DNA of 64,000 bases, from assembly GCA_009829735.1 (NCBI GenBank), contig CM020620.1, forward strand, positions 20,062,020-20,126,019, in the 5' to 3' direction. Position numbers and translations under genes: made by a program. This document shows, one piece after another, positions 36,621-59,848 of this stretch. Source of the DNA: Pyropia yezoensis. Lineage: Eukaryota; Rhodophyta; Bangiophyceae; Bangiales; Bangiaceae. Positions within the stretch are counted from its first letter, which is position 1. Each line of letters begins with the position of its first letter. The notes under the pieces were generated by a model that was given only the letters and a program-made list of their open reading frames with translations, was not told the DNA's origin and searched no databases.

Positions 36621-36671
36621 ACGTCCGAGTCTGGGTGGAAGGGTGTCCCAACCCACCTGTGCCCGTCCCCG

Positions 36672-39263: not shown

Positions 39264-39282
39264 TCGGGAGTATGTGGGGGGC

Positions 39283-39309
39283 GGGGGGGGGGGGGGGGGG
39301 GGGGGGGGG
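39283..39309. repeat. poly-G tract
   Basis: Uninterrupted G run just after the helicase stop. A second interrupted run lies at 39483-39518. Confidence 0.9.
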
Positions 39310-39936: not shown

Positions 39937-39989
39937 CTTCGGATCTTTGTCGAGATTGTTATGTGTCGACGCGTGAATAAGTGTTTTCC

Positions 39990-40921: not shown

Positions 40922-41444
40922 CGGATCAAACGGGAGGGGAGGGGATTCGGGCGGCGGCGCGAGATGATGTTGAATTGGACGGTGACGGGGGTGTCCGGGG
41001 ATGGGTGCTCTCATCCGTCGGCCGCACGTTCAGCCACAGGCAGGTCAGGTCAGTCGCTTCCCTCGGCGCCCCCGTCTCTGACGAGAGCCGTAGGTCCACG
41101 CGGCCCGCGCGGTGTCGTGTGCTGGTGACAGGCCATTTGGATGCACCGCACGGTGAGCTCGCAGCACGGCAATGCCGTCTGTGGCGGTGGGTTTTCATTA
41201 CACGACTGCACCCCCCCCCCCCCCCACAACAAGACGTCCAGGATGACTTTTTTCCCAAACGGTGCTCGTAGTGCATTGCAAACGGACGGGGCCTACCGGA
41301 AGCACCAATAGGCTGGGTGCCCGCGTCCCGGCACGCCGCTCCACATGCACCGTGGCGAGCAGGCAGTGCCGAGGGTGGGTTCAATTGCAGTGTTGTTATT
41401 GCCCCGCAGCACGGTGGCGGTCACTCTCCCAATACGTGCCGGCA

Positions 41445-41467
41445 GGGGGGGGGGGGGGGGGGGGGGG

Positions 41468-41512
<45 letters not shown>

Positions 41513-41924
41513 CGCTCGCTCGCCATGGTTGGGCGAGCCGCACGGATGCTGGCGTGTCAGTCGGCTCAAATGCCACAGTGCATGCGGTGCACTCCGTCCC
41601 GCACCCACCGTCGTACTACTGGCGGCTGCCATGAGCACAGCGTCTGTGCGCGGTCTGCAATTGGGCCGCCAACCCTATCACCACCACCGCCGCCGCCACA
41701 CCACCACCGCCAGCCCCACCACCGCCACCGCCGCCGCGCCACAGAACACTCTCACGGCAGCCACCGTCGGCCACGGGTGCCGCGGAGATGAGAAGGACCT
41801 TTCATTTCCGGGGCGGCGAGCTAAGGCCACGCGACAGCCCACAGGGGCATGTGGCCGTGCGAGCATCCTCTGCTCTGCCCCCTGCCCGAGAGGTAGCGTC
41901 GGTTAGGGGGTGGCGGGGGGCGGG

Positions 41925-41978
<54 letters not shown>

Positions 41979-41985
41979 CGGGGGG
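41445..41985. repeat. two very long poly-G tracts (41445-41512 and 41926-41985)
   Basis: Each is over 50 bases of almost pure G on the plus strand; the first is broken by a C at 41468, the second by a C at 41979. The DNA between and around them (40922-42300) has no supported gene; a short poly-C tract is at 41211-41225 and a longer one at 42228-42255. Confidence 0.9.
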
Positions 41986-42225
41986 TTGTGAGGACCTGGA
42001 CCGACAGCCTCCTGACGGCCCGTGCAGCCCATCGCCAGCGTCAACAGCACGCGTGCGGCATCGAGCGAGGACGCCGGCCCGGGTGGTGCCTTGCCAGACG
42101 ATAAATAGGGCGGTAGGTGGTGCCCCGAGGTTCCCCATCTTTGCCGACCCCGTCAGCCACCGTCGACCATCCCACCCACCCTCCTCACAGTCGTTCCCGC
42201 ACACACAACCCGCTCATCCGCCTCC

Positions 42226-42258
<33 letters not shown>

Positions 42259-42300
42259 CCACGTTCCCCCCCTCCCCCGCCCTCCCGCCCCGGATTCACG

Positions 42301-42788
42301 ATGAACGATGATGACGACGGCAGCGACCAAGACGTTGGCGTCCACGGGCTGGACGGCGACACCACCTCAGACGAGGAGTAGGACCCGGCACAAGAGCAGG
42401 CCTACGTTCAAGACGCACGCAACGTGGTGACGCTCAAGCGGGCGGTGCTCGCCGCCAACCTGAGCCGCCTGCATGGCGTGTCTGCATCCCCAGGGGGCGA
42501 CGCGGCCTCGTCGGCCGGCTGGTCTGCCGCCGTCGCGCAGTTGCAGCAGGCGGCCAAGGATGAGGAGGCGGCGGGCCCCCTCGACGGCGCCGGCAAGGAC
42601 CTCGTCGCGGCCATCACAGACGCGGCACAGGCGGTCAGCTTGTACTGTGTTGGCCGGGCGGCGGCACGCGAGGCCGAGGTGGAGCTCGCCGCACGCGCCA
42701 GGACGGCCGCAGGTCTGATTGGCGTGGCCGCCGCGGGCTTGCCCCGGCGCAAGGCTGCCACTGACGCACCGCCCGCCCGCAAGGAGCG
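42301..42788 (+). pseudogene. Fanzor gene, N-terminal segment (cut by gypsy-2)
   Basis: ATG at 42301 starts an acidic peptide (MNDDDDGSDQDVGVHG). An in-frame TAG follows at 42379; the same frame then runs to the gypsy-2 insertion through an Ala-rich helical region (VTLKRAVLAANLSRLHG, LVAAITDAAQAVSLYCVGRA). At 42784-42788 the target duplication gagcg begins. The frame continues without a shift at 52444 once the element and one duplication copy are discounted. This is why it is assigned to the Fanzor gene; the segment itself has no signature motif. Confidence 0.6.
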
Positions 42789-43359
42789 TGTGGTATAAAA
42801 CTCGATCCTCTCAGACACGTGTCAATATCCCTCGGGGGAAAGGGACAGGTAACACAGAAAGGGGAACTACGAGAATGGTATGCCTGTTGCCTCACGTGCC
42901 TGCTCGCAGAGCAAACAGATACGCACGGTAGTGCACACGGGGAAGAGGAAAGCAAACGCGCAGTTGTCTTTTTCCTGAGGGCGCGGGCCAAGGGCGCCTC
43001 GCTGTCCCTCTTAACGTGCATCTGGGGGAGCCTCGGCACGTTGGCCAGGTAGCCCCCCCATAACCCCGAGTGGCCCCGACCCGAGTCTAACCTCGTCAGG
43101 TCGGGGGCCACTATCACTACTAATTCTATTCCCACTCACTAATCTCACACTCAAATTCTCTCAAATCAAGTCCCTCACAAGTATGCAAAAACCCATCAGC
43201 AATCCCTCTCTCACGTGTGGATAGCGGAGTCCATCGCATCCCAGTGCCGGGCACGGGCCACGGCCGCCAATCATCACCACACGGCGGGCGTGTTCTGGCA
43301 CCTGGTGCCCCCTGGTTGTAGTCCCGGGTCGGCGCCAAGTCGGGGCCAGGGATGCTACA
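42789..43359 (-). repeat. gypsy-2 3' LTR (571 bp)
   Basis: Plus-strand ends TGTGGTATAAAAC and GGATGCTACA. A TATAAAA on the plus strand at 42794-42800 points toward the antisense ORF, a possible antisense promoter. The purine tract AGGGAGGGAGCTA (minus strand, 43360-43372) abuts it and is the likely polypurine tract. Confidence 0.95.
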
Positions 43360-43543
43360 TAGCTCCCTCCCTAGTCCGGCACGTCCTCGGGCCGAACCAG
43401 GTGCCACCGTGCACAGCCTCGAGCACGTCCACACCGGTGCCGAGGTCGAGCGTCTTCACCCTGGTCACGATCACCTGCTCCGGTTCTCTGCCCCCCTTCT
43501 CTCCTTCACCTTGGCCCTCGCGTTCCCCCGGAGTCTGGACGTC

Positions 43544-45661
43544 ATGTCCAGTTCCGAGATCCAAGCTGGGCCCGTGGTTCCGGCGGCGAGTGTTGCGGAG
43601 GAGAACTCGGGTAGTCGCGCCCCTCTCCTGCCTCCGGTTCCTCGGGTGTCGATGTCGGCGCCGGTCGCCACGGCGAGGACGGATCGGGTTCCCCCGGCTT
43701 CTGTGATGCACCCGGTCGAGACCCCCCCGGTGGGTCTCCCGGAGATGCTTCTTGGGCAGGACCCTCTGGCGGCCCGGCGTTACTCCACGGTGGTCGGCAA
43801 CGCCGGCGCGGCCCAGTGCCAGCAGGATTGCTTGGACCTCTGGCGCAAGGAACTCCAGCGCGGGGTCTTGACAGAGATGGATAAGGCTCGTCTTCACACG
43901 GCGGACCAGATGCGCCTGGCACAAGACCGCTTCCAGAGCTTCTCGGGTTCCTCCTGGGTTGCTCGTCTGGAGGATCTCCCCTTCGCGCTGGTGCTGGATC
44001 TGCCCTTGACCGAGCGTCGCGTGTCCGCGTCCGTTCTCCGGTGGCCGGAGTAGGAAGGGTACGTCCACCGGGCGCTCAAGGTCTGGGACGAGGCGCTCAA
44101 GGGGTCGGGGAGCCTGAACTGCGACCCCCGTCCGAGCATAGTCGCTCTGGAGCCGCCTTTCCTGACCCGGAAGTACTCCAAGTTGTCACCGGCACGGGAG
44201 CAAGGCGAGCGACGCGGCCGCCAGCGTGACTTCCTCGTGAGCTGCAGCCATCAGGAGTTCTGGAAGCTGGATAAGGCTAACCGGGCGGCGTACTACCCCA
44301 AGGTCATCCCGCAGCAGCAGGAAGTCGAGATCCCGGTCGGGTTTGCTCCTTCCAGCATCCCCTTCACCTGGTACTTCTTGGACGCCTTGACTCAAGCGTC
44401 GATCAAGGGCTTCTTCCACTCGATCCCGTACATGATGTACACGTCCGAGATGACAGTCTTGGCGGCCAACCACTGGCTTCACGAGGTCTTAGTGTCCAAC
44501 CGGCTTTGGTTTCTCCCGGACCTCCTGATGGTCTGGATTGTCGACAAGTTGACCGTCGACTTCCTGTGCAGCCAGGACGAAGAGTACAAGGGGCTCTTCC
44601 AGGCGATGATTGACTTCCGGCGTCTGGTGCCGGTGCATGACCGGAACTTCTTGAACGCGATTGCCGACCAGAACCGCCCGCGTCGGGATGGCTTCGGTTG
44701 GGCGCAGGTGGTCTACCAGTCTTCTCCGGCCAAGGTGCAGCTGGCGACGCCGCTTCCGGCGTGGCCGCAGCTAGGTAGCTTTCCTGCCCCGGCCGCCATT
44801 GATCATCTGCCAGTTGGGCCGCCGGTGCAGGAGTCGGGATGGGCCGCGGCGGTCAGTCAGGCGTCTGCGGCGGCTCCGCTTCCTCCTGTTGCACCTGTCG
44901 CCCCGGTGGCCTCGCCTGAATCGTCGCCGGCGCGTTCACGCCCTGTTCCGGCTGTGCCGGTACTTCAAGCTCCTCCGGCACCGCGCCTGTCTGCGGCGAG
45001 TCTGGGGGTGACCGTGCGGTCGCCTACCACTCCGGCCGCTCCGCCTCGGACGCCTTCCTCCAACGCCGGCGGCGCTGTGCCTCCGCTGGAGTTGGGTACT
45101 CCGGTTTCGGGGGCCGTTGTGGACCGTCCGGTGGTGTCATCCTCGGGGCGGTTCGAGATTCCGGCGCCGACTCTGCGCCTTACCCGCTTCCGGGTGCCTG
45201 ACTGGTACCTGATCCAAGGTGGTCCGACATGCGACCAGTACGACGTCGGTATGATTGAAGACCAGCTGGGTCGTCTTCCGGTGCAGGTTGAAGGCGTTGG
45301 GTCCTCCCTGGTGCTGGGTACCTACGCCAGCGTCTTGAACAACGTGGTCGACCGGGTGTTTGCTTGCGCGGACAGCGGCCAGATGTCGAACAGCCCGGTG
45401 GTTGGCGACCTTCTGGCGACCTTGACGCGGCATGGCTTGGCCCAGCAGTGGTCAGAAACCTTCACTGGCTTCCAGGGGCGCCGACGGGCATATCTGGATG
45501 AGCGGGAGCCCCCGGCAACTACCGGTACTACTCCGATGGCGTCATACCGGGATGAACCGCGTCCACCGCACTACGTCATCCCGTCTTCCTCCGGTTCCCG
45601 TCGTGCCGCGGAGGCAGCGCTGGAGGACACTCCCGCGGCTCAGCGTCCGCGCCGGGAGTAG
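43544..45661 (+). CDS. antisense ORF inside gypsy-2, 705 codons with one in-frame TAG
   Basis: Runs opposite to gag-pol, between pol and the 3' LTR. From the ATG at 43544 (MSSSEIQAGPVVPAASVAEE) one frame extends to a double TAG at 45659-45664, broken only by TAG at 44051-44053. After that it reads through EGYVHRALKVWDEALKGSGS into CSHQEFWKLDKANRAAYYPK, TWYFLDALTQASIKGFFHS and LWFLPDLLMVWIVDKLTVDF. A Pro/Ala linker (~residues 400-520) leads to a second globular block (RFRVPDWYLIQGGPTCDQYD). Aromatic-rich, balanced composition supports a real protein. No family is recognised. Some plant gypsy elements (Grande, Retand and others) carry antisense genes at this position. Confidence 0.7.
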
Positions 45662-45806
45662 TAGTTGGAGGCAAGGAGGGTGAGGGTCTCGGGAGAAAAG
45701 AGGAGGGAAGAGGCGGAGAGAAGAGTTGCCCGAGCGGGTGCTTGTTTTCCTTGATTGTTCCATGCTTGTATTGCGTGTTCTCCTTGATATACCCGTTCCC
45801 TTCTTC

Positions 45807-48800
45807 TCAATCCTCTTGTCCCGCATCCGTTGCGGATGAACTCGGCTCGTCCCGAGGGTCTTGGTTGGCCCCATCCTCTTGGTCCTCCTCCGAGTCCGAC
45901 TCCAGAATCTTGCCGGCTCTGGCCACTGGAGTGCCCTCTATCCCTTTCCGTCGCGTGTAGGCACAGACATCCGCGATGGGTAGCCGGTTTGAGGGTTCCC
46001 AGGTATCATCTGCCGGGTTAAAACCGAACCAGCGTACTCGCAGGTACAGGTGTCCGTCTCTCCAGGCATGGTCCACAAACTTGACGTAGACATATTCCCG
46101 ACCTTCTTCTTGGGATAGCCAGGGTACTGCGGCCCGCTTGCGCCGGGTCAAGTCCCGTTGGCTTGGCGGTGGAGCTCGGGTGACATGGTCGCTGCTCACG
46201 CGGTACGGGGAGCCATCCACGTCTAGAAGAAAGGTCCAACCGTCCGTATTCAGGATCTCATAAGGTCCATCCGTCTTCGAGTCCAGCTTCCCCCGGGTCT
46301 TGCTATGGTTGTCCACAAAAACCCAGTCGCCACCACCCAGTTCCTTGTTCTTTTCCCGAACGCCCTTGTCATAGCCCCGCTTGTATCGCTCCTGGGTCTT
46401 CGAGATTGACGCCTTGACTCTTGGGAGCAGGAGCTTCAGTTGTTCCAGGAACTCATCCTTTGCCTTGGGACCTGACTTCAGTGCAGGCCGGAGACCGTCT
46501 GGTATTCTTTCCAGGGAGAAGTTGGTCCGCCGCCTTGGGGTGACAAAGTCGAGTGGAGCGACCCCCGTTGTCCGGTGAACTCGGGAGTTGTAGGCTAGAG
46601 TGAGGACAGCCAGGAGCTCGTCCCAGTCTTCTTGGTGCTCCTCCACGTAGTGCCGTAGCATGTCTACTAGGGTCCGGTTGAATCGTTCCACCTGGCCGTT
46701 CGTTTGAGGGTGGTACGTCGTAGTGTACAAGTTCTTGATGCCCATCAGGTCACAGACTCCTTGGAAGAACAGGGATGCAAACTGGGGACCGTTGTCGGTT
46801 AAGACGGAGTCTGGAGGGCCGTAGGCAGCTATCCAGTACTCGCAGAAGGCTGACGTGACATCCAGAGCCGTGATGGTCCTCAGCGGGATTGCTCGAGTGA
46901 ACTCGAAGAACCGGTCACATATGATGAGCAGGTATATGTTGCCACTGGATGTTTCAGGTAGGGGCCCCAGGATGTCCATGCTTAAGCTTGCAAAGGGCTC
47001 CGCCGCAGGGAATAGACGTAGCTTAGAAGTCTTCTTCCTCTGGGACAACCGGTTCCTTGCACACGAAACACAAGCCTCCAGGTACTTATGGACGTCACTG
47101 GCCATGGTTTCCCAGTAATAGTGTCGTCTCATGGAAGCATACATCCGATTGATACCAGGATGTCCGGCCTGGGGAGACGAGTGCTCCAGGCGTAGGATGT
47201 CAGCTCGTAGGCCCCGGGGTACGTAGACTTGAGTGGCCCCATCGAAGGGTGACACCCGTACTAGGAGTCCGTCCGTAGACTCGGAGAAACGACTGTTCCG
47301 GTTCAGGTCCATTTGGTGGCGAAGCTCCAAGCATTGAGGATCCGTCAGTTGTGCCTCCAGCATCCGGTGAATGGTCACCGGTTGATGAGCTTCAGGTGTC
47401 TCATACAGGGGAGCGTGCCAGCCACGTCCGACATTCGGGAGGATGAAGCAAGGTATTTCCTCCGGTATAGGACCGGTATCGGCTGCAGGAGTCTCCAGCC
47501 GGGACATGGTGTCGGCGCAGTGGTGCTCCCTCCCTGCTCTGGTGCACACCTTGTACTTGAACTCCGAAAGGCGTAGGCGCCACCGGGCGACCCTTCCTTG
47601 ACTGCTGTCCATACATAGCAGCCACCTTAGGCTGGCGTGGTCCGTCCGGATGAGGAACTCTTGTCCTTCAAGATATGGCCGTAACAGGAAGCAAGCCCAG
47701 ACGACTGCCAAGCACTCGCGCTCGGGCGTGGAATAGTTCTTCTCAGCTGGAGTCAAGACGCGACTGTAGTAGCCTATCGGGAGAAAGTGCCCATCAGGTT
47801 GCTGCTGGAGTAGTGAGCACCCCACCTGGACGCCACAGACATCCGTCTCCAGAACAAACTGGCCCTCCCGCTTGGGTAACGCCAGTACTGGAGTGGTGGT
47901 CAGGCGCTTCTTGAGCTCTTCGAAGGCCGCGGTCTGCTTCTCGTCGAACACCGGAAGTTGTGCGGGAAGCTTCTTGCTGGTCAGCTTGGTCAGTGGCCGG
48001 GCAATCAGAGCATAGTCCCGTACGAACCGGCGATAGACGTTGCACATACCCAGGAAGCTCTTGAGTTCCGTCTGGGTTTTGGGTTGCCGTGCATGCCGGA
48101 GGGCCTTGATGTTCTTCTCATTGACTCGGAGCTCCCCCGGACTCAGCACGTGCCCCAGATACTCCACCTCAGTCTCAAACAGGTGGCACTTCTCGGCCTT
48201 GAGGGTAACTCCAGCCTTGGACAGGAGGGCCAGGACCTCCCGAAGGTGCTCCAGGTGTTCCGCTGGGGTCTTGGAGAAAACGATAATGTCATCCAGGTAG
48301 ACCAAACATGTTCTCCACCTTAGCCCGGACAGAATGATGTCGATGGCTCTTTGGAAGGTCGCCGGAGCATTGGTGAGACCAAAATGAAGACGCTTGCACC
48401 GGAATAGTCCCAGGTGGCACGTGAAGGTGGTCTTGTCCTTGTCCTCGTCAGCCAGAGGGATCTGCCAGTAACCGGCATTACAATCCAGCGTCGAGAAGAG
48501 GGTGGCATCACCAAGAAAGTCGAGGCAATCATCCATCCGGGGTATCGGGTATACGTCCTTGACTGTCATCTCGTTCAGGCGCCGGTAGTCAACGCAGAAA
48601 CGGAAGTGACCGCCGGTTTTCGGGACGACTACCACCGGGAAAGCCCACTCGCCATCAGACGGCTCGATAACATCCATCTTGAGCATCTTGTTAACCTGCT
48701 TCTCAATCTCATCCCGGCGATGAGGTCCGGCCCGATATGGTTGCATGTGCACTGGCTTAGCTTCCGGCTTGAGTTGAATCCGGTGTAGAGTGGCGTCCAT

Positions 48801-49766
48801 CTTGCCCAGCTCTCCCGACCACAGGTGCCGATATTCCTGGAGAAGCTTCTCCAGTGCCTCCTTCAAGTCGGGAGGGACATTTTCTTGCTTGACCTTCGGC
48901 ATCCCGGGTGGTGCTTGTTCGGGTTTCGGAGTAGCGCTGCCAGCCTGCTCTTGCTTCGGAGGTACGTCTAAGGCCGTCAAGTTGGATGCCAGTTCTTGTT
49001 GCAGGTTCAGGAGGTCTTCCTTGCTCATAGCACGGGCGGATCCCCGGTAAGGCTCTGCTGTACCAACTCGGGTGCCCTTGGCGAGGGTTATTGGCTTCCG
49101 GCTCACGTTGACGATTAGCACCGAGAACAGGGTGTGCCTATCTACCTTCTTGTGATGTCCGTGGGCCAAGTATAACCGGTGTTTCGCCAGAAATTCCTTA
49201 CGTCCGTAGATCAGGCATTGACCTGCAATCCGGGTCGTTACTTGAACCTTGGTCTCCGAGCGAGGAGGTAGGAGCACCGGTTTGAAGAGAGTCAAGGTAG
49301 AGGGTGGGATGCGTTCCCTCTTGCTCTTGGCTACACGAACCTTGGCGTCCAGATGTTCCAATACCAGTGACACAAACCCATGGGTGAACTGGACCTTCCC
49401 TTCTCCGGGTAGGATGCTCTTGACATGCTGCTTCTGGAAGTCCCAGCCTAGGATGAGGGCGACTGATAGGGTCTTGACTACTAGAAAGGGAAAAAGCATT
49501 GGTTCATTGTTGACATAGATGGCGACAGGAAGACGGCCAAGCGGTCGTAGGGTTTGACCCGAAGCGTCGACGATATGGGTCCGGGTAGGCGCTCTCCAGG
49601 CATGTCGACGCCAGCCCGGAGGTAACAGGTTCTCAGTGATGACGCTTGGTCCGGCTCCCGTGTCAACCACCGGCGTAACAGCTTGGGGGAGGCTATCCCC
49701 CACACGCATACGAGCATTAATCTTGAGGTTTTCTTTACGCAGGACGAGCAATGTCCCCTTGAACAC
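45807..49766 (-). CDS. pol: gypsy-2 Pol polyprotein, 1319 aa
   Basis: Intact. The retropepsin motif is VVDTGAGPSVI with D35-T36-G37. RT has KTGGHFRFCVDYRRLNEMTV and catalytic YLDD at residues 490-493. RNase H has LETDVCGVQVGCSLLQQ and RTDHASLRWLL. The integrase zinc finger is HSSPQAGHPGINRMY...CVSCARNR; its DDE core has SMDILGPLPE, LTDNGPQFASLF and HPQTNGQVERFNRTL. Near the C-terminus YVYVKFVDHAWRDGHLYLRV then RWFGFNPADDTWEP is a chromodomain-like module, followed by an acidic tail. In a different frame from gag, about 130 nt downstream. A much larger N-terminal protease region and C-terminal tail than gypsy-1 show that the two elements belong to different families. Confidence 0.97.
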   Translation of the reverse strand: MFKGTLLVLRKENLKINARMRVGDSLPQAVTPVVDTGAGPSVITENLLPPGWRRHAWRAPTRTHIVDASGQTLRPLGRLPVAIYVNNEPMLFPFLVVKTLSVALILGWDFQKQHVKSILPGEGKVQFTHGFVSLVLEHLDAKVRVAKSKRERIPPSTLTLFKPVLLPPRSETKVQVTTRIAGQCLIYGRKEFLAKHRLYLAHGHHKKVDRHTLFSVLIVNVSRKPITLAKGTRVGTAEPYRGSARAMSKEDLLNLQQELASNLTALDVPPKQEQAGSATPKPEQAPPGMPKVKQENVPPDLKEALEKLLQEYRHLWSGELGKMDATLHRIQLKPEAKPVHMQPYRAGPHRRDEIEKQVNKMLKMDVIEPSDGEWAFPVVVVPKTGGHFRFCVDYRRLNEMTVKDVYPIPRMDDCLDFLGDATLFSTLDCNAGYWQIPLADEDKDKTTFTCHLGLFRCKRLHFGLTNAPATFQRAIDIILSGLRWRTCLVYLDDIIVFSKTPAEHLEHLREVLALLSKAGVTLKAEKCHLFETEVEYLGHVLSPGELRVNEKNIKALRHARQPKTQTELKSFLGMCNVYRRFVRDYALIARPLTKLTSKKLPAQLPVFDEKQTAAFEELKKRLTTTPVLALPKREGQFVLETDVCGVQVGCSLLQQQPDGHFLPIGYYSRVLTPAEKNYSTPERECLAVVWACFLLRPYLEGQEFLIRTDHASLRWLLCMDSSQGRVARWRLRLSEFKYKVCTRAGREHHCADTMSRLETPAADTGPIPEEIPCFILPNVGRGWHAPLYETPEAHQPVTIHRMLEAQLTDPQCLELRHQMDLNRNSRFSESTDGLLVRVSPFDGATQVYVPRGLRADILRLEHSSPQAGHPGINRMYASMRRHYYWETMASDVHKYLEACVSCARNRLSQRKKTSKLRLFPAAEPFASLSMDILGPLPETSSGNIYLLIICDRFFEFTRAIPLRTITALDVTSAFCEYWIAAYGPPDSVLTDNGPQFASLFFQGVCDLMGIKNLYTTTYHPQTNGQVERFNRTLVDMLRHYVEEHQEDWDELLAVLTLAYNSRVHRTTGVAPLDFVTPRRRTNFSLERIPDGLRPALKSGPKAKDEFLEQLKLLLPRVKASISKTQERYKRGYDKGVREKNKELGGGDWVFVDNHSKTRGKLDSKTDGPYEILNTDGWTFLLDVDGSPYRVSSDHVTRAPPPSQRDLTRRKRAAVPWLSQEEGREYVYVKFVDHAWRDGHLYLRVRWFGFNPADDTWEPSNRLPIADVCAYTRRKGIEGTPVARAGKILESDSEEDQEDGANQDPRDEPSSSATDAGQED

Positions 49767-49894
49767 ACAGGGTGTCCAGGCGGCTACCGGTTGAGCAGGT
49801 AACCGCCGTCCTTTCTCCCGGCACGCAAGGGGGGAACAGGTAGAAGTACCCTGCCGTTGGAGGTTCGGGAAGACGCTTGGGTAGAGCGCCTGCC

Positions 49895-51715
49895 CTACTC
49901 GTTTCCCGGGTCCGAGGAGTCCTTAGAGGTTTCGGTCTCCAGGTCGAAGTCTGTAGGAGCTTCCCTTGCCAGAGCCTCCGTGATGCTCTGTAAGGTTGCC
50001 ACTCGGATTGCATGTACCTGTGCCTTATCCATCTTGGAGGGTGCCCGCCGGTCAGCCCAGTTGACCACCTTTGCAAGCACCAGTCCTTGACGCTTGAGTT
50101 TCTCCTGGAGGTCCTTGGGAATGGTTGGGCACTGGTAGGACATGTGATCCTCCTTCTGGCACAGCCAACAAGACCGGAACCGCTGGTTCTTGACTTGCTT
50201 GGGGGCGACCAGGGATGGTTGCTCCTTAGAAACAAAGCCGCCCCACTTGTCCCCTGACCCCATGGGTGAGGCCTCGCCAACTGCGAGTACTGGTACAGGG
50301 CTATCACCTCCCTTATACTTGTCGGGTCCGGGTCGAACTCGCGACAACGGCTTGGGAGTTGATACCATGGGAGCTTGGAGGGCCCTGGCTTGCCGGTACT
50401 TGCCCTGGGTGTAGGCCATCAACTGCTGGAAGGTATGTTCTTGATGTTCCTGGTTGTAGTTCTCCGCATCCACTTGAAGATATTCAGGAAGCCCTTCCGA
50501 GAAGATCATCTTGAGCCTGTCCTCAGGGTAAACGTTGCCACAAGCATCGCTCATCTCCCGGACACGACGGGCGAACGCCTCTGGAGTCTCTTGTCTTTCC
50601 ATGGTTGCCCGGTTCAGCCTGCCGACTGCTTTACGCAGAGAGTCCGCGTCAGCGTAGTTGGACAGGAGCCAGTTGACCGCCTCCGGATAACTCGCGACGG
50701 TACGTCCGACAATGTGTCCGGCAAAGTCTGGTAGAACCTGTGCAAACCGCTGTTCCGCTTCTCCGGTCATGAAATTAACCAGGAGGTAGAGAGCCTTGCC
50801 TTCGGACACATCGTTGTCATTGCATGCCTTGACAAACCGGCGCAGGAAGGCAAAGATAAGCGCCGGTCTCTTCCCGGAAAACTTAGGATGTCCCCCGAAG
50901 CTCGGCTGCATTCGCCGGTTCAGGGACGCCATCTTCTTGGCCATCTTCCGGGTGTAACCTTGGTCTTGGTTCTCCAGCCGGTAGTTACCCCAATACGTGA
51001 CCTTGTTCAGGGTGGCATCTCCCACTTGGTGGGCAGGGAAGTCAAACTCGACTAGCCTGCGCCGGGTGGGACCGGGAGATGCATCCCAATCATATCCCTC
51101 CTCAGAGCTGGAGGAACTGGTCTCGCTGGTGCTAGAGCGACGGCGATGACGCCGACGCCTTCGGCTGCTCCGGTTACCGGTCTTGGAGCCCCCCGCCCCA
51201 TAGGATGCAAGGGGAGGAAAAGCTTGGCCGGTCCCAGGAGTCGAAGTCTCAGGAAGACCCGTGGAACCAGTCGTAGCGGTGCCTCTGGCACTGCTAGTGC
51301 CCACAGGAAGAGGTGTATACACCCAGCTGCCATGTGTGGGTCCAGGAGTAAACACACCAGGGGCTATCCCTGGAGGTTGAGGAGTAGAACCGACAGGAGG
51401 GAGACATCTGCTGCGAGCGGACTCAAACGCCGTTGACCCCGGGGTGGCTCCCACAGGAGGAACAGCCGGAGGAACGGGAGCAGGTGGTACTTGGCCGCCT
51501 GTGGACTCCAGTCCGCTACCGGATGTCACGCCCAGGTCTGCTTCACCCGTAGGGAGAACGCCGGGTTGGGCACCGTCCCCCGCGGTGACCAGGGATGCGT
51601 CAAGGGACGCGGGGTCTACCCCTTCGGACACGGTCGTGCCAGGGAGGGTAGCCAGGTTGGTCTCTTGACAGCCACAGTCCAGTTGCCTGCGTGTCCAAAG
51701 ATCGCCAGACCACAA
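49895..51715 (-). CDS. gag: gypsy-2 Gag, 606 aa
   Basis: Residues ~50-180 are Pro/Gly/Thr-rich; an Arg/Ser-rich patch (SSRRRRRHRRRSSTSETSSS) follows near 190-210. The capsid-like core includes KFSGKRPALIFAFLRRFVKA, FMTGEAEQRFAQVLPDFAGH and NRATMERQETPEAFARRVRE. A single CCHC knuckle is at C516-x2-C519-x4-H524-x4-C529 (CWLCQKEDHMSYQC). It ends in an acidic tail. Longer than gypsy-1 Gag because of the N-terminal disordered region. Frame intact. Confidence 0.93.
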   Translation of the reverse strand: MWSGDLWTRRQLDCGCQETNLATLPGTTVSEGVDPASLDASLVTAGDGAQPGVLPTGEADLGVTSGSGLESTGGQVPPAPVPPAVPPVGATPGSTAFESARSRCLPPVGSTPQPPGIAPGVFTPGPTHGSWVYTPLPVGTSSARGTATTGSTGLPETSTPGTGQAFPPLASYGAGGSKTGNRSSRRRRRHRRRSSTSETSSSSSEEGYDWDASPGPTRRRLVEFDFPAHQVGDATLNKVTYWGNYRLENQDQGYTRKMAKKMASLNRRMQPSFGGHPKFSGKRPALIFAFLRRFVKACNDNDVSEGKALYLLVNFMTGEAEQRFAQVLPDFAGHIVGRTVASYPEAVNWLLSNYADADSLRKAVGRLNRATMERQETPEAFARRVREMSDACGNVYPEDRLKMIFSEGLPEYLQVDAENYNQEHQEHTFQQLMAYTQGKYRQARALQAPMVSTPKPLSRVRPGPDKYKGGDSPVPVLAVGEASPMGSGDKWGGFVSKEQPSLVAPKQVKNQRFRSCWLCQKEDHMSYQCPTIPKDLQEKLKRQGLVLAKVVNWADRRAPSKMDKAQVHAIRVATLQSITEALAREAPTDFDLETETSKDSSDPGNE

Positions 51716-51848
51716 GAGAGGGGTTGGAGAGCCAGGAATGGGATTCCCGTGAACGGGTGCAAATAATTCTCAAACCACAGAAAAAGACAGAACAGGAACA
51801 ACCCAACCGCTGCTCCCAAATGTCTCTTCTCAAACACTCCAATCATCC

Positions 51849-51863
51849 CCTGCTGCTCCACCA
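51849..51863 (-). other. gypsy-2 primer binding site
   Basis: In element orientation TGGTGGAGCAGCAGG lies four bases inside the 5' LTR. It is complementary to a tRNA ending CCTGCTGCTCCACCA. The same 15 bases form the primer site of the small LTR element at 55682-55696. Confidence 0.8.
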
Positions 51864-51867
51864 AGTA

Positions 51868-52438
51868 TGTGGTATAAAACTCGATCATCTCAGACACGTG
51901 TCAATATCCCTCGGGGGAAAGGGACAGGTAACACAGAAAGGGGAACTACGAGAATGGTATGCCTGTTGCCTCACGTGCCTGCTCGCAGAGCAAACAGATA
52001 CGCACGGTAGTGCACACGGGGAAGAGGAAAGCAAACGCGCAGTTGTCTTTTTCCTGAGGGCGCGGGCCAAGGGCGCCTCGCTGTCCCTCTTAACGTGCAT
52101 CTGGGGGAGCCTCGCCACGTTGGCCAGGTAGCCCCCCCATAACCCCGAGTGGCCCCAACCCGAGTCTAACCTCGTCAGGTCGGGGGCCACTATCACTACT
52201 AATTCTATTCCCACTCACTAATCTCACACTCAAATTCTCTCAAATCAAGTCCCTCACAAGTATGCAAAAACCCATCAGCAATCCCTCTCTCACGTGTGGA
52301 TAGCGTAATCCACCGCATCCCAGTGCCGCGCACGGGCCACGGCCGCCAACCATCACCACAAGGCGGGCGTGTTCTGGCACCTGGTGCCCTCTGGTTGTAG
52401 TCCCGGGTCGGCGCCAAGTCGGGGCCAGGGATGCTACA
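51868..52438 (-). repeat. gypsy-2 5' LTR (571 bp)
   Basis: Copy of 42789-43359 with about ten substitutions and equal length. It ends at the gagcg target duplication, immediately before the Fanzor frame resumes. Confidence 0.95.
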
Positions 52439-52443
52439 GAGCG

Positions 52444-55209
52444 GACGCAAAAGTGTAGCGGATGTGGCCAGCCCGGGCACAAGGTCACCTCTTGCAAGGT
52501 CCCGGCTGGTGTATGGCCGGCAGCCGCTGCCGCCGCCGCTGCCGCCGTCCCGGCTGCGGCGGCGGCGGCCGCGTCCAAGTAACGCGACTGCCAGGGAGGG
52601 GGCCACTGCAGCGGAGACGCCGCCTGCCCGGTGCAGCGGCACTGTGGGGGCGTGTCAGCGGCCTACGACCGCGGCGTCGACTCCGACTGCAAGGACCCGC
52701 TTCAGAGCACTGGACGGTAGACGCGGGCGTGTACCGCGCCGGTGGGCGTCCTCGCGAGGGCGGTGTTTGGGGACGACAAGGACGACACCGACACGCGCGC
52801 GGCGGTGGAGACGGCGCTGCAACCAGAGCTCGAGGACCTCTCTGGGGCGGCTACCAAGCTCCGCTTCCTCATGCTCCGCGTCCTCGACGTGGCATTGCGG
52901 CGCCTGGTGTCGACCGTCGCGGACGCAGCCGCCGACGACGCCGACTGGACGGGGGCCGTGCCCACAATCAGGGGGCCCGTCTGGCTGTGGTTGGCCTACG
53001 GCTGCGGCTGCGAGGGTGTGTCTGGCAGTCCCCTGCAGGCGGACACCGTGTGTGCGGGGTGTGGCAAGGGGCGGGCCAACACGCCGATGGCGCGCGCCCG
53101 CTCTGTGGTGACAACGAGCCACCCGCTGCTGGCAGAGGCGCTCTCCTACGCCCTGACGCAGGTGATGGCCGTCACGGCAGCTGCGTGCGACCGGTATCTT
53201 CCGGCGAGCAAGAACACGGCACGATGGGAGCCCGTCACCACCATCGTGGCCACCCACGCCGGGCGGTGTGTGGACGCGGCGTGTCGCAAGCTGGGCGCCA
53301 AGGCGGCCAAGGACGCGCTGGCCACCCCCCCCGCTGCCACGGCTGCTCCAGCGGGCGACTCTGCCTGGGACACGGAGGGGCGGCTGACGCGGTGGGCGGC
53401 CGCGCGCTTCCGCGCGGGTACCGCGGACAAGGCAACGCCGGGCCGGCGGGGCCTCGACGGCGTCCCCCAGCACCTGGTCCAGGCGCTGGCGCAACGGGTG
53501 GCCGTCATGCGGGCGGCAATGCCTCCCTCTGTGGCGGGCCTCTTTCCAGCAACGCCTGTGAAGAAGCGCCGCTGGTGGGCGTACGTGCCGTTTCTCCTCC
53601 ACGTCCTGAAATTAGGTGTGGAGAGCCCGTACGCCCTCATCCCTGGCGCCCGAGCGGTGCTCCACGGTCACGGCACTCTGGTGCGGGACAGGATGCTCGC
53701 CCTGTTGCGGGCAGTTTCGGCCGCCACTGGCGTGGGGGTGCGTGGCCACCCCAGTCTTTGGGCATGGCCAGAGCTGCAAGCGGGCGGTGAAGCGGTACTG
53801 GTCGCCATGGCTGGTGTCGGTGGCCGCGCCAACCGGGCCTCCTCCTAGCTGTCTACCGACGGCGTGGCGGTGACGTTTTTTCTGTCTCGACCCGACACGG
53901 ACGCAGAAGCCGAGGCGCGGGCGGTGGCCTAGGCCAAGAAGCTGGACGGCGGTGGACGTGTACGGGACCGCAGCGGCACAGGCTTTGCGTCCCGGGTGGG
54001 GGTACTGACGCAGCTCGAGCGGGCTGGCCTGCCGTTGGCGCGCATCCGGTGGCTCCAGATGTTCGGCGGAGACCCGGGACGGTTAGCCGTACTGTCGGCA
54101 GCACCGGGTGAGCGCGTGGCGACGGCAGACCTCCCAGCCAGCCCCGCTGTAGCCGCGATGCGCGGCACGTGGTCCCGCTACATGGGCTTGGACGCGCTCA
54201 ACCGGGCGGCCGTGGCGCTCCTGCGTGGGGCGGGCGTCCAAGAAGGGGTGGTGGCAGCCGCAACCACGCCCTAGGGCCACCCACCCAGGGGGTCTAGGAA
54301 GCGGGCGGCGGCGGGCGCCCCGGCTGCAGGGGCGGGGACAGGGGAGGGCCGCTCCAAGCGACAAGCGCGGCGGTCGTCACCCGAGGGGAGCGACGATGGT
54401 ACGGCGGCGGTGGCCTCGGCGGCGGCGAGTGCGACGACGCCCCCCGAGGCAAAAACCTACCAGACGGCGAGCCCTGGCGGTGGCCACGGGCGCGTGCGGC
54501 GTGGGCCGCAGGCGTCCATCCGACGGGCCCGCCGCACCTAGCTCGCCACTTCGGGGCGGCATGTGCTGCGTCGCACGCGCCTGTCCCGGTGGACTGTGCC
54601 CCGTCACGAGGCGGAAAAGGTGGCACGGTGGCTGGTGGACCCCACTGCCGCGGCGGGCAACAGTGCCAGACACACCACCCCAGACGCGCCGCTGCAGGAC
54701 CGGGTGGACGCGCTGCCCCGGCGCAAGGGGTGTCGTCGACTGGCACCCGTCCCCGGCCTTCGCTACAGCCTGAGTGCCGCCCACTTTCGCGGGGCCAGCG
54801 GCGGTAACTTTTCGGCCCATGCGTGGAAGCAGTGGCGGGCCCGCAGCGGTACTGAAGCGGGACCGGTGGCGGCAGCGGTGGCGGGACAGGTGGCGGCGGC
54901 GGGTGACGTAGGCGGCGTCGCTTGCCACCTACCGCCCGTCGACTTGGCAGCAGCACACGGCACGACGCGTACCGGCGACGACGGGAAACGCCTGCAGGCA
55001 ACGCTCGAGTGGGCCGCCCGTCGCGACACAGCCGCCTACAGCCAGCGATTAGGCGCCCAAGCCACTCGACACCTGCGCGCGGCGCGTGTGCGCAAGGCCA
55101 GCCAACGCGGCCGCCTCGGTGGCGCGGGACCTGACCGGCGGCCTCCTTCGCCAAATCCGTGACGGCGGCGCGGTCGTCGCGGCCATGGGCACCGCGCGCG
55201 TGCGCGGGG
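52444..55209 (+). pseudogene. Fanzor (eukaryotic TnpB-like) gene, central segment with RuvC-I
   Basis: Resumes the frame of the 42301 segment. It begins with a CCHC zinc knuckle (CSGCGQPGHKVTSC, 52451-52492) and a Cys/His-rich stretch (RDCQGGGHCSGDAACPVQRH). Helical Fanzor-like sequence follows (KLRFLMLRVLDVALRRLVST; KKRRWWAYVPFLLHVLKLGV). RuvC-I is GGDPGRLAVLSAA with the catalytic Asp at 54071. YSLSAAHFRGASGGNFSAHA and a Trp/Arg helix (LEWAARRDTAAYSQRLGAQA) follow. In-frame stops: TAA 52580, TAG 52718, 53846, 53930, 54272 and 54539. A frameshift near 55095-55130 leads to VARDLTGGLLRQIRDGGAVV and AAMGTARVRG, where the small LTR element interrupts it. Fanzors are RNA-guided endonucleases of mobile-element origin; this copy is broken. 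Confidence 0.82.
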
Positions 55210-57075
55210 TGTGTGGCAGTGTTGAGCCCAGGTAGGGGGGCAACACGTGCCATGCAAGGAGCGGCAGGCCACTTGCCTGATCCGTTCCTCCCCCTGCATT
55301 TGGGTCCATATTCCCTAAGTTTGGGATAGTCAGCTTAGTAGTAAATCCAACTTGGATTTGAGGGTTTTCTGCATTTATCGTCTTGAATTTTCGTGTGGCC
55401 CGGTGGGCAGGTGCTGGGGTGGGAGATTCTGAGTGGCGAGATTCTGAGGGGACCCAGGGGGGGATAAGGGGAGGGACAGCGGGGCTTGGCCCTGCGTCCC
55501 CGTCCCGACCAAGAAACTGTTGGACCACACACCATCCTCTTGTTTGTCAGTGGGGGATTGCCCCACAACAGGGATAGAGTGTGTGCGACTTGCACCTCTT
55601 CCGGTTCCCCCGACACGGGAGGCAGCCCTTGTGCACCGCCCCAACTTGGGTGTCGTGTGTGCGAGAGGTTTTTGCCACATTTGGTGGAGCAGCAGGTGAC
55701 AGAGGTAAACTTTACCTCCGGGTGCACCCGGGAGTAGGGGGCCCTCTGTCTCAGAGGAACGGTGGACTTGGACCGTGTCATACGGATTGTCAGCCAACAT
55801 GGCTAGTTCGGACCCCCGGTCGTCCGGGGAGTACACGGGTGACGCACGTACTTCAGTGCCTTTGAATACTGGTGAGACACAGGTGGGTTTACCTGGGGTC
55901 GCAGAGGGACTATAGGTCCCTCAAGCCAGCAGGACTGGAAGTGCGGGCGGGCAACAGGCCACCCCGACTCAGTCGGGAGTTCACTCGGGTGACACTTCTG
56001 ATGCGGGTGGGCCGAAGTCTGGCCACCGTGTGGTAAGCTCAACGGGAACGTCCCAAGGGGTGAGGACTGTCCCCGCGGGTTCCACTCGGGTTGGAGCCAA
56101 CTTTGGCTTGGAGCCGTCGCCAACTAGGCTTTCGCAGGACGGCGGACCTCCGTTGGTCGGCGATGGGCTCGCGCCCATGCCCCCGGTTGAGACCCCTGAG
56201 GATCGTGGTTGCCCCTCAGGTGGACTCCCGGAGGCGGACCGAGACTCAACCGGAGTCGTCAATCCACTCCTCGCGGAAACTGTCCGTCGGGAGGCGACCA
56301 ATGTGCTGCGGCAGACTTTGCCGGACCTGGTGGTCACGATGACGAATACTATTCTGAATCAGATTGTGGCGAGTTTGCCAGATGGTCTTAATGCCCAGAC
56401 CGGATTGGGGCTTTCGAGCCCGCAGGCGCAGGGGGAATCCCCCCTCACGCCTATCTCGGGTCGCCCCAAACAGAGGGCGACACCTGTGACTCCCAACAAG
56501 GGAGCCACACCATACTCGGTGGGGCGTACGCCCTTCATGGGGGAGTTTCCCCGGAAACGCCGGCGGCTACACCAAAGGCGCCGCGCCAGACTATAGGCAC
56601 TGAGGGTCAACTTACCCCAGTGCCACAGCGGCTGTTCCCTCAACGAGAGAGGCCGCCCAAGATCCAGGTAGGCAACCCGGTCTACCATAGGATCTTTGAT
56701 TGTGAGACCTACGCCCTCCACAACAAGTCGGTGGCGTATGGTCCTGTCCAGGCCCGAGCCATGGGCCGTGCCAAGAAGAATGCACTTCACTCTTTTGGGC
56801 ACAAAGCGGAGTGGGGTGGGAGATTCTGAGTGGCGAGATTCTGAGGGGACCCTGGGGGGATAAGGGGAGGGACAGGCGGCTTGGCCATGCGTCCCCGTCC
56901 CGACCAAGAAACTGTTGGACCACACACCATCTTCTTGTTTGTCAGTGGGGGGATTGCCCCACAACAGGGATAGAGTGTGTGCGACTTGCACTTCTTCCGG
57001 TTCTTCCGACACGGGAGGCAGCCCTTGTACACCGCCCCAACTTGGGTGCCGCGTGTGCGAGAGGTTTTTGCCACA
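55210..57075 (+). mobile_element. small, internally deleted LTR retroelement inside the Fanzor gene
   Basis: The left LTR (55210-55679, 470 bp) starts TGTG and ends CACA. A primer site (TGGTGGAGCAGCAGG) lies two bases later at 55682. The right LTR keeps only the last 264 bp (56812-57075), matching 55415-55679 with several substitutions. The interior holds a short gag-like frame and no pol. A G-run target site is consistent on both sides (GGGG at 55206-55209 and 57076-57079). Deletion of the internal 3' part and the first ~205 bp of the 3' LTR explains the structure. Sharing the primer site with gypsy-2 suggests that it depends on a related element. Confidence 0.8.
55799..56596 (+). pseudogene. 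gag-like remnant in the small LTR element
   Basis: From the ATG at 55799 (MASSDPRSSGEYTGDARTSV) one frame runs 265 codons, interrupted only by TAG at 55913. It is Ser/Thr/Gly/Pro-rich, with a helical segment (LLAETVRREATNVLRQTLPD) and a basic end (RKRRRLHQRRRARL). Position after the primer site suggests the N-terminal part of Gag. No zinc knuckle or enzyme domain remains. Confidence 0.5.
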
Positions 57076-57644
57076 GGGGGGACGCCTGCCTCCGCCGCCA
57101 CCTCCGACGGCTGTGCTGGTTTGTCGACCAGGACGAGTTCAACACAAGCCAGGCGTGCTCCGAGTGTCACGACAAGATGGTGCTCATCTACTCGACGGGC
57201 AACTCCCCCCCCAAGATTCCAGGAGAACTGTACGGGCCGCCGGCCGGCCCTCTGCCGTCGGCACGGCGTGTGCGGATGGCGGCGGGTTCGCGTCGGGGGC
57301 GTCCAAAGCGGGCCCTCCCCTCTGCTACCCACGTGACGCGCCGAGGGCCAGACCCCGACGCCTACCGGGCGGCCGTCCGTGCCACTGCCCGTGCTGCTGC
57401 TGTGGCGCGGCGTGCGGCCGCGCTGGCCGCCTGTGCCGTCGAGGACCGCGCCGTCTATGCCGACCCAAGGCGGCTGAGCGAGTGGGCGGCCAAGGGCTGC
57501 TACACGTGCTCTCTCGCGGCCCCACAAGGCCCCGGTCATCCAGCGCCACACCCGCCCGTGATTCGCAATCGGGACGACGTTGCGGCCCGCAACATGGCGT
57601 GGGTGGCCGCTCGTCGTCTCACGGGTACCCACATGTGGCCTTGA
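57076..57644 (+). pseudogene. Fanzor gene, C-terminal segment (RuvC-II, zinc ribbon, RuvC-III)
   Basis: Resumes directly after the small LTR element with GDACLRRHLRRLCWFVDQDE. DEFNTSQACSECHDKM matches the Fanzor/TnpB signature DEf-TS-C-x2-C (RuvC-II acid plus the first zinc-ribbon cysteines, 57156-57167). A ~100-residue Arg/Ala-rich insert separates it from the second pair, C-x2-C (CYTC, 57498-57509). RuvC-III is NRDDVAARNMAWVAARRL with the catalytic Asp at 57573, in agreement with the NRD-NAARN consensus. It ends HMWP-TGA at 57644. All RuvC acids are present, but the gene is separated from its other parts by insertions. The order of motifs and spacing make a Fanzor the best call. Confidence 0.85.
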
Positions 57645-57787
57645 GAGCGCCCGTTTGGTATGACGTGGGCCTGGACGACCAAGCGTCCTCCAAGTGGTGT
57701 TCCCGTCCCGCCTGCACGTCGCACCCGTGCGACTCAGCGGGTCGATGTATGGCCCGTACTGGCTGCAGTGGACACTGTCGTCGACGG

Positions 57788-57850
57788 TGGTGGTGGTGGT
57801 GGTGGTGGTGGTGGTGGTGGCGCTGGCGGTGGTGGTGGCGGTGGCGGTAG
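57788..57850. repeat. (TGG)n-rich microsatellite
   Basis: Imperfect TGG/GGC triplet run just downstream of the Fanzor stop. The frame after the TGA stop stays open across it but is Gly- or Val-rich low complexity. Confidence 0.85.
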
Positions 57851-58029
57851 GAGGGTTGTCGACGGCGACGCGACGGCGGCGTCCTGTACGACGCGACGCG
57901 GTGCTCCTGGTGGGGAACGGGTGGCGGCGGCCGGCAGTTCCATGGACGGGGTACGTCGGGCGGAGACGGGGGCGACAGACGCGCCCCGTGGTCAGGTGGA
58001 CACTGCAAGACGCTGAGACAGCGCACATC

Positions 58030-59848
58030 TTGCCCGTGACCCTCACCTACCACGGGGTGCGTCAGCCGCCCCCTTTACGCCGACGAGCCAATTATGGGTA
58101 ATTGTCGGCCGTTCACTAGCAGGTGAGACGCCGGCTTTTCCCGGGGACCTTTCCCAGGATGAGTCGGATGTTTCCCGGAGGGGTTTAACCGATAGTTCCG
58201 ATGCTATCGGGCGATTTACAACTATTGATAACGTTATATTTTGATACGTGAGTCGTACTTGTGGTTCGTCGAATTTCTGGAAATGTAACAGCCAATCAGA
58301 GCGCGTTCTCGGTGGCCTGGGATAGCTCAAGAGCCATCGCCCGACCAAAAGGCTCTGCTTCGCCTCGGCGATAGCTCAGAGCTATCGGGGGTCAATTTCG
58401 TACAGGTCTCTGATTGGATGATCTTTGATTACATAGACCTGGCATTTTTCCATGTCACGGTTCATACGGAATAGTCATGGCTTCTCCCGATAGCTCACGT
58501 TGGTGGATGTGCCCTGAGAGAACGTTTTGGGTGTGCATTGTTTCTCGTGACAGAGACCGAAAGAAGCTCTGGCTTGGGCGGCGGCGGCGGCGGCGGCGGC
58601 AGTTGAGGCGGCCGTGCGGCTGCCCCGTCCCGGTCAGGGGCGGCCTGTGTGTGCGTATGGGCATGGACGCGTACGGGTCGCGGTGCATCTTGGTGGGCGG
58701 TGCTCGTCCCGGAAGGCCGCGCGCCCAGCCGGAGGCGGGCATGCGGTGTGTGGCGTTCCAGGTCGGCCCCCTATCGCGGCGGCCAAGGTGGCGTCGGTCG
58801 TGGCCACGCGCGCGGGAGGGGCTGCCGTTCCGTGCTGTGGGTCGTCGCCGCGCTGTTGTCAGTCGCGACAGCTGCGCACTGCTCGACGGGCCGGGGCGGG
58901 TGTGGTCGGCGCGTCCAGTTTGGGCGTTTCGAGGCAGTTTAAGTCAGTTTGAGTCAGTTTGAGTGGTGTCCCAGACGGCATCCTCTACCCAATGCACCAC
59001 CGATCGACCACGATTGCGAGGACATATGTGGTACCCCCCCAGGTATTCCCTGAATAATACCGAGAACAAGCCAACTCATGCCGACACTGCTGCCGATCGC
59101 ACAAATGGAAAATGTGACAGCCGCCATACGACATGAATCTCTTGCTGTGGATGGCCGACTGCCGCGCTATCAGATCTCACGCCGGCGTCGATCGCCGCCG
59201 TTTTCCTGCTCGGAGGGCGCCGACGCGGGCAACGTGGGCGTACAAGCCCCGTTTTTTTTGCGCGCGCTTTACCGCGCGTGGCGCCACAACTATCACTCGG
59301 CTGTCCGCGCGCCACCACTCTGCCACCACGCGGCCCGACACTTGGCGTGCGCACGCGCCGTCTCTGTCACGCCTCCCAGCCGCTGCGCCTCCACCACCAC
59401 CACCGCTGCGCCACCACCACCACCCCGTCCTGTCCGCAGCACACCGTCACCACCTTCGCGTGCAATGCTGTCCTACCCCGCTGCTCCCCTTACCACTACT
59501 CCTCCCCTTCCCACTACACCCCTTCCCAATGCACCTCCCTGCCCCTCTCCGGCTCCCTCCCGCTGTTCACTCGCCCCCCCCTTCTTCCGGCTGATCCCAC
59601 CCTGCCCCGACACGCCCCCCGCTGTTGACCTGCTCCCCTAATCACCGCTGGCCGCCCCACCCGCTTCTTATCTCCTACCCGGTGCTGTGCGCCTCTTCCC
59701 AGCCGCCCCGGCCTCCCCCCCCCCGTGTCGGCGTCCCGGGTCGCGGCAGAACTCGTCGCCGTGTCTGCCGCTTATTCTTTTTCGGCCGCCGTCTCGTCGC
59801 GCTTGCGGGATGCGACGCCTACCTCCGGACGCCGCTGGTCCACCTGGT
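58030..59848. other. intergenic, with an AT-richer hairpin and CCAAT cluster
   Basis: 58180-58500 is AT-richer than its surroundings and carries repeated CGATAGCTC motifs and inverted CCAAT boxes. The rest to 59848 has overlapping low-complexity frames on both strands (Pro/His/Thr-rich on plus, 59340-59640) with no supported gene. GAGTCAGTTT is repeated near 58945-58960. Confidence 0.5.
58190..58500. repeat. cluster of CGATAGCTC hairpins and an inverted CCAATCAGAG pair
   Basis: Perfect stem CGATAGCTC-A-GAGCTATCG at 58369-58387. A related stem CCGATAG...CTATCGG is at about 58190-58210, an imperfect GGGATAGCTC-AA-GAGCCATCGCCC at about 58319-58342, and a half-site CCCGATAGCTC at about 58486-58496. 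CCAATCAGAG (58292-58301) and its exact inverse CTCTGATTGG (58408-58417) bracket the middle hairpins. Confidence 0.75.

Follow-up and report, generated by a model that had tools for sequence, protein, structure and literature searches.

A decayed copy of a probable giant mobile element with a divergent Fanzor-type nuclease gene in Pyropia yezoensis

We analysed a 64,000-nucleotide window (G000:C3:20062020-20126019) of the genome of Pyropia yezoensis, the red alga nori (assembly of 107.5 Mb in 11 contigs, 3 of them large). With a probability of roughly 0.8, a giant DNA mobile element of this species has left a decayed copy in the window, truncated on its left side. The last gene of this element would encode a divergent Fanzor-type nuclease of about 1,350–1,400 amino acids (aa), and we infer that a guide RNA helps to retain the element at its sites. 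A preliminary description of the window had recognised a Fanzor gene split by two insertions; it missed a much larger repeated element, just inside one end of which the gene is located.

An interrupted gene and its sibling copies

The four motifs named in the preliminary description are all present on the forward strand in the order given there: GGDPGR (54065-54082), DEFNTSQACSEC (57132 onward), CYTC and NRDDVAARNM (57567 onward). Alignment to a sibling copy (L021) places the three gene pieces (Table 1) consecutively within one coding sequence (CDS), and siblings carry them as one frame of about 1,400 codons. Removing both insertions therefore gives a single Fanzor locus, as had been proposed. 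The pieces belonging to different genes, an outcome that the preliminary description had set against its own reading, is ruled out by the single open reading frame (ORF) in siblings. Piece 2 holds the predicted RuvC-I catalytic Asp (54071-54073), and piece 3 holds the Glu of DEFNTS (57135-57137) and the Asp of NRD (57573-57575). Identity to L021 is 95.6% where 57076-58000 aligns to CDS positions 3278-4208.

The window copy is a fossil. Relative to L021, it carries eight nonsense codons and one frameshift: a nonsense codon in piece 1 (at 42379), six in piece 2 together with an 8-bp deletion (at 55113), and a premature stop in piece 3 (at 57642). This damage means that the copy was not simply silenced by its insertions, which need not have silenced the gene at all. 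The choice offered earlier, of a fossil or a recently silenced gene, is thus settled for the fossil, and silencing by the insertions alone is not upheld.

Table 1. Parts of the element copy and of its insertions, in window coordinates.
Feature	Coordinates	Strand	Basis
C-terminal part of Upf1-like superfamily 1 (SF1) helicase (ORF 36621-39263); leftmost surviving part of the element	35918..39263	+	sibling matches, AAA_11/AAA_12, UPF1
Helicase-to-Fanzor intergenic region of the element	39264..42300	+	blastn against five siblings
Fanzor piece 1, codons 1-163 of sibling L021	42301..42788	+	94.3% identity to L021 CDS 1-491
Target-site duplication GAGCG, left copy	42784..42788	+	alignment to L021
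Gypsy long terminal repeat (LTR) retrotransposon, 9,650 bp, TG...CA	42789..52438	-	reverse transcriptase, RNase H, integrase; LTRs
Target-site duplication GAGCG, right copy	52439..52443	+	alignment to L021
Fanzor piece 2: CCHC knuckle, middle domain, RuvC-I	52441..55209	+	93.8% identity to L021 CDS 489-3280
Small LTR-like element TGTGTGG...GCCACA, 1,866 bp, at a G run	55210..57075	+	repeat comparison
Fanzor piece 3: RuvC-II/zinc-ribbon and RuvC-III	57076..57644	+	PF07282 E=0.0028, below cut-off; alignment to L021
Gly-rich C-terminal tail of sibling genes, past the stop in the window copy	57645..58016	+	sibling comparison
3' noncoding strip up to the right end; putative guide-RNA scaffold site	58017..58197	+	sibling conservation
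Right terminus GGGGTTTAACCGATAGTT of the mobile element	58180..58197	+	sibling similarity ends there

A genome search with the C-terminal ORF identified at least 71 places that carry the C-terminal Fanzor piece, the window included. This count was drawn from the best 127 of 7,287 candidates; the 56 rows left out matched only the repeat of the small LTR-like element (51), this repeat and Fanzor (2) or Fanzor alone (3). Among the last three, two resemble second pieces of counted copies and one is a further decayed place. Copy counts here are lower bounds, as most genome searches scored only the best candidates. The 71 places include 63 that cover the whole Fanzor part of the query and 17 with a frame of at least 1,440 aa free of stops, so that the intact siblings expected by the preliminary description do exist.

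We fetched 20 of the 71 copies, chosen mainly for long open frames and thus a biased sample. DPG, Glu and RD are all retained in 17 of the 20, and seven fit a stricter pattern that asks for an acidic start, the knuckle and every motif within a single frame and in fixed spelling. Between sibling copies, the Fanzor part is about 94–98% identical in the pairs listed. A full-length relative on a contig of different origin (P0004, 1,347 aa) is 61% identical and has the same layout. With 71 places in the genome and this full-length relative, chance motif matches are ruled out as an explanation of the pieces.

Likeness of the protein to Fanzor1

On sequence comparison, we class the protein as a divergent, enlarged Fanzor1-like variant, which most likely works as other Fanzors do. 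Several published marks bear on this assignment. One source gives DPG at RuvC-I and an alternative catalytic Glu six residues before a CxxC pair as Fanzor marks (PMC10711439). For Fanzor1, a second describes a D-X(125,275)-[TS][TS] spacing, a [TS][TS]xx motif before the zinc finger and an RD after it (Bao and Jurka 2013, PMC3627910). In the nori family, DPG is present at RuvC-I in 18 of the 20 fetched copies and in P0004. A Glu lies six residues before the first CxxC in L021 and P0004 and is present in 19 of the 20, while TSQA/TSKA and RD occur in all 20. The first CxxC pair is invariant across seven aligned family sequences. The motifs had been read earlier as the Fanzor/TnpB signature; DPG, Glu and RD bear this out. 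CYTC is present in all 20 nori copies, about 110 residues from the first pair, and absent from P0004.

Profile comparison points the same way. A search of solved structures with a Fanzor consensus placed PpFz1, GtFz1 and SpuFz1 on top, and a search with a stretch of PpFz1 gave a Fanzor1 reference set of 32 proteins, 15 of which were aligned. The profile-profile score of the nori family against Fanzor1 was 45.2, compared with a mean of 15.6 and a maximum of 25.7 for 200 column shuffles, none of which reached it. Taken alone, the RuvC-II/zinc segment scored 43.4 (shuffle maximum 22.9) and the RuvC-III segment 19.7 (shuffle maximum 19.3). The separate segments align in order to PpFz1 481-494, 739-769 and 811-828, the sites of D485, E755 and D818. 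By these alignments the RuvC-II/zinc region is homologous to Fanzor1, with RuvC-I and RuvC-III on matching places. The profile check proposed in the preliminary description was thus borne out by profile-profile comparison, which stands clear of the shuffles, and not by Pfam, where the match stays below threshold (PF07282, E=0.0028).

A number of results weigh against this assignment. The PF07282 match in the window copy reaches 18.2 bits against a cut-off of 26.3, five of seven family members give weak matches, and no match over the cut-off was found in the whole genome. No solved Fanzor structure was among the structure-record matches of single-profile searches, and a protein search found close relatives only and no known Fanzor. 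The hhalign probabilities against the Fanzor1 profile are moderate (52.6% at P 1.4e-4 and 36.3% at P 3.7e-4), and the RuvC-I segment alone scored inside the shuffle range (19.3; maximum 20.2). Another relative (P0005) has Lys in place of the Glu, and the second zinc pair does not extend to P0004. The spacing from D to E is 403 residues in L021 and 364 in P0004, compared with 270 in PpFz1, and lies outside D-X(125,275)-[TS][TS]; we therefore class the protein as a divergent variant and not as a typical Fanzor1. On the favourable side, median dN was 0.024 and median dS 0.049 (dN/dS 0.50) for the 15 of 20 copies with a long frame, which indicates constraint only moderately; because the sample was limited to open frames, it may overstate purifying selection.

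Other searches returned little. The Fanzor core of L021 drew no match from PADLOC or NCBIfam, PHROGs gave two matches for P0004, both at chance level, and the glycine tail dominated a search of solved structures with the whole protein. Most Fz1 proteins have 600–700 aa according to PMC11423790. At 1,347–1,407 aa, the nori nuclease is about twice the usual Fanzor1 length, and it has an N-terminal CCHC knuckle.

The right terminus and the larger element

Sibling similarity is lost just past GGGGTTTAACCGATAGTT in the 20 fetched copies, some of which have small variants of the 18 bases. With at most one mismatch, this terminus was found at 76 genome sites, all of which were used in our counts; a backward control gave 0. 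The terminus follows within 3 kb downstream at 49 of the 71 Fanzor places, and 27 of the 76 termini lack a counted Fanzor place at this distance. Past the right end the flanks differ among the fetched copies, and 24 distinct flanks show no similarity to each other. The first flanking base of these 24 is A in 13, C in 7, G in 4 and T in none, which perhaps reflects a target preference. The element itself ends in AGTT in 19 of the 20 fetched copies and in the window, and in TGTT in the remaining one (L027).

The distance from stop codon to right end is 182 nt in 13 of the 16 siblings with a frame longer than 1,100 aa. Mean identity of this 3' strip is 95.7–98.4%, compared with about 90–92% over most of the upstream noncoding part. 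Measurement gave no support for a stronger conservation of the last 400 bp than of the coding part: the strip and the gene are about equally conserved. We consider the strip a putative site of a guide-RNA scaffold.

The guide model rests on TnpB and Fanzor biology, as set out in PMC10432273. By analogy, an RNA spanning the 3' strip and the right end of the element (...CCGATAGTT) would carry a guide from flanking host DNA, and the nuclease would cut the empty target site. Repair from the element-bearing chromosome would then retain or copy the element. A separate enzyme would mobilise it, with the helicase as a possible helper.

Folding of the strip does not favour this model: the 182-nt sequence gave a z of -1.51 against shuffles, 19 of 200 of which folded as well, and is not significant. 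The weak fold fits instead with a RuvC-like transposon nuclease that has the Fanzor fold and uses no guide RNA, as do the long extra regions of the protein, its N-terminal CCHC knuckle and its altered zinc ribbon. Such a nuclease seems improbable to us, given a catalytic arrangement equal to the published Fanzor arrangement and a 3' strip that is about as conserved as the gene right up to the terminus.

Upstream of the gene lies a helicase ORF (36621-39263) of the SF1 type, with AAA_11/AAA_12 matches and UPF1 as the best solved relative; MkoA models also match. The region between helicase and Fanzor is largely common to five siblings, in pieces of about 90–96% identity, and differs in part in one of them (L026). 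Without its two inserts, the window from 35918 to 58197 measures about 10.8 kb, which matches the usual distance from helicase to element end.

We searched the genome with this helicase region and with three further upstream probes (B, C and D), and paired each match with a terminus when the probe lay upstream on the same strand within 120 kb. The helicase probe lies upstream of at least 36 of the 76 termini (median 10.9 kb; best 40 of 63 candidates scored, all 40 rows used). Probe B does so for at least 28 (median 46 kb; from the best of 237 candidates, 39 of 85 rows were used, one per place, after second pieces and short weak rows were dropped). For probe C the figure is at least 19 (median 49 kb; 25 of 48 rows used, with short repeat pieces and two places of 75–78% identity, in three rows, dropped). 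For probe D it is at least 10 (median 55 kb; from the best of 153 candidates, the 17 places holding the first 500 bases of the query were used, and rows matching an unrelated repeat or the right end of the query were dropped). Counted from the markers, 27 of 39 B places have a Fanzor or terminus 8–70 kb downstream on their own strand (compared with 1 upstream and 3 on the opposite strand), as do 18 of 25 C places (0 and 0). The upstream markers, the helicase included, thus keep a fixed order and orientation across tens of kilobases. Together with the shared terminus, they argue that the Fanzor is most likely the last gene on the right of one giant mobile unit spanning tens of kilobases.

Other observations count against a single giant unit. 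Nested insertions inflate the distances from marker to terminus, and in several copies a middle stretch of about 20–23 kb between probes lies outside the sequence read. The left end was not reached in the 13.7 kb walked further left at one locus (L045, L046, L047), and no transposase of the element was found among tyrosine recombinases, serine recombinases and Helitron Rep proteins. A smaller Fanzor-bearing element (for example Fanzor plus helicase, of about 11 kb and more) may instead have landed in, or be embedded in, larger segmental repeats. That would explain a left end never reached, a distance of marker B that ranges from 17.8 to 113.5 kb, and upstream regions that fall into two subfamilies and contain other repeats. 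We regard it as unlikely, since marker order and strand are kept and seldom reversed, and the copies compared have in common both the helicase region and the DNA next upstream.

Known types of mobilising machinery were considered in turn. No inverted partner of the 18-bp terminus was identified 5–150 kb upstream of the 76 sites at up to one mismatch, a test that leaves shorter or more divergent repeats outside its reach. This count of 0 among 76 speaks against a Polinton or other element with long terminal inverted repeats, DNA polymerase B not having been searched for. The tyrosine recombinase model PF00589 matches 28 times in the genome and never within 90 kb upstream of right ends, which makes a Crypton or Starship less likely; DUF3435, which we take to be the model for the Starship captain, was not searched for. 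A Helitron was set aside as well: of 22 genome matches to the Rep model PF14214, none precedes a right end or Fanzor match by 90 kb or less, so RepHel was not found there, and the CTRR 3' end (Helitron1) is absent. The serine recombinase model PF00239, which matches in 10 of 14 control genomes, has no match in this genome at E up to 1, which speaks against an IS607-type element.

It is conceivable, if doubtful, that the family represents a new superfamily of giant eukaryotic mobile elements, of tens of kilobases and with neither long inverted repeats nor a recognised transposase. In such a superfamily, an enlarged RNA-guided nuclease at the right terminus would take its guide from the insertion site, the element would enforce its own presence at occupied loci, and the Upf1-like helicase would be a replication partner.

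The window copy also lacks its left part. Among the other scored genome matches of the helicase region, 38 of 39 start at 35918-35920, and the element sequence that should follow to the left of 35918 does not occur in the window; a copia element (RVT_2, gag, integrase; 31326-35917) directly borders that point instead. The upstream flanks of L042-L044 and the sequence of L045 were not found in the window. With this adjacent part absent, the copy is truncated as well as interrupted. It would have died through point mutations and the copia, gypsy and LTR-like insertions, to which we assign no order.

Both insertions within the gene were described earlier. The 9650-bp gypsy element was confirmed between two copies of GAGCG, the perfect duplication reported for it. 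Its LTRs (42789-43359 and 51868-52438; 571 bp each) are identical at 561 of 571 positions (98.2%), and on its reverse strand it encodes pol (45807-49922) and a gag-like ORF (49895-51769). Reverse transcriptase, RNase H and integrase score above curated Pfam cut-offs, and a protease, a chromodomain and the zinc knuckle of the gag-like ORF below them. Opposite to gag-pol, two neighbouring long ORFs (243 and 535 aa; 43322-45661, forward strand) lie beside an LTR; the 535-aa ORF has no Pfam match, and the pair may be an extra antisense gene. For the small element, the insertion at the G run was confirmed and the LTR label holds less well: its internal repeat, of about 265 bp, falls short of two full-length LTRs, and the G run does not allow a clean target duplication to be read. 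Its terminal repeat is abundant, being the sole match of 51 of the 127 scored rows in the C-terminal ORF search.

Further features were noted in passing. To the left of the copia element, a long forward-strand ORF (25171-26823) resembles, by eye, a host 2-isopropylmalate synthase, and the DNA there is host-like. In L045, the interval from marker B to the helicase is about 20 kb shorter than in other copies and contains a run of N. Two ORFs in the left part of the element (L045:1283-2119, forward; L045:3069-3899, reverse) look related by eye, have opposite orientations and gave no notable Pfam match. The PF00589 matches at C1:39063250-39078480 and C1:28368919-28402006 are mostly long ORFs at regular spacings of 4,959 bp and about 4,681 bp, respectively, which suggests tandem arrays of an unrelated tyrosine recombinase element.

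Comparison with known systems

Fanzors have mostly been described from small transposons, and their role for hosts or elements is still open. The nori family combines high copy number, open frames and near-identical copies that share one terminus, and its host is a cultivated seaweed with a genome assembled to chromosome scale; this makes the guide question testable: whether RNA from each copy carries a guide from its own flank, and whether the empty site is cut. The family would place a giant Fanzor carrier alongside the few known giant transposons and supply a double-size Fanzor scaffold for comparison. We found no published account of Fanzor in Pyropia in the literature searched, which covers few subscription papers.

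The protein resembles Fanzor1 (PpFz1 of Parasitella, SpuFz1, GtFz1) in its DPG, the Glu six residues before CxxC, TS-x-x-C, RD and an in-order profile match. It differs in length (1,347–1,407 aa compared with mostly 600–700, and 849 for PpFz1), in the longer D–E spacing given above, in its CCHC knuckle and in a second CxxC that is distant or absent.

Helitrons that carry Fanzor1 likewise lack long inverted repeats, and a 3' terminal hairpin is possible in the nori element; the latter differs in having no CTRR end and no Rep match within 90 kb upstream. Starships, the giant transposons of fungi, are also giant and carry cargo, whereas the nori element has no PF00589 match within 90 kb upstream (DUF3435 again lying outside the search).

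A parallel by host is CMe-1A, a Fanzor1 element of Cyanidioschyzon merolae with about 150 copies of about 3 kb, no terminal inverted repeats and about 80% identity to its consensus, according to PMC3627910. Both elements come from a red alga, have high copy number and a Fanzor1 protein, and terminal inverted repeats were not found in either. This known case of high-copy Fanzor1 elements without inverted repeats in a red alga (same source), and the 27 termini without a counted Fanzor nearby, which allow for short derivatives, would fit an ordinary pseudogene of a small Fanzor1 transposon. We consider that very improbable: the nori gene is preceded by a helicase and by repeated DNA over tens of kilobases, and its protein is about twice the usual size. 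The nori copies are also about 94–98% identical in pairs, compared with about 80% to consensus for CMe-1A. Fanzor1 in a red alga was already known from CMe-1A; what is new here is the size of the probable carrier, its helicase partner and a nuclease of double length.

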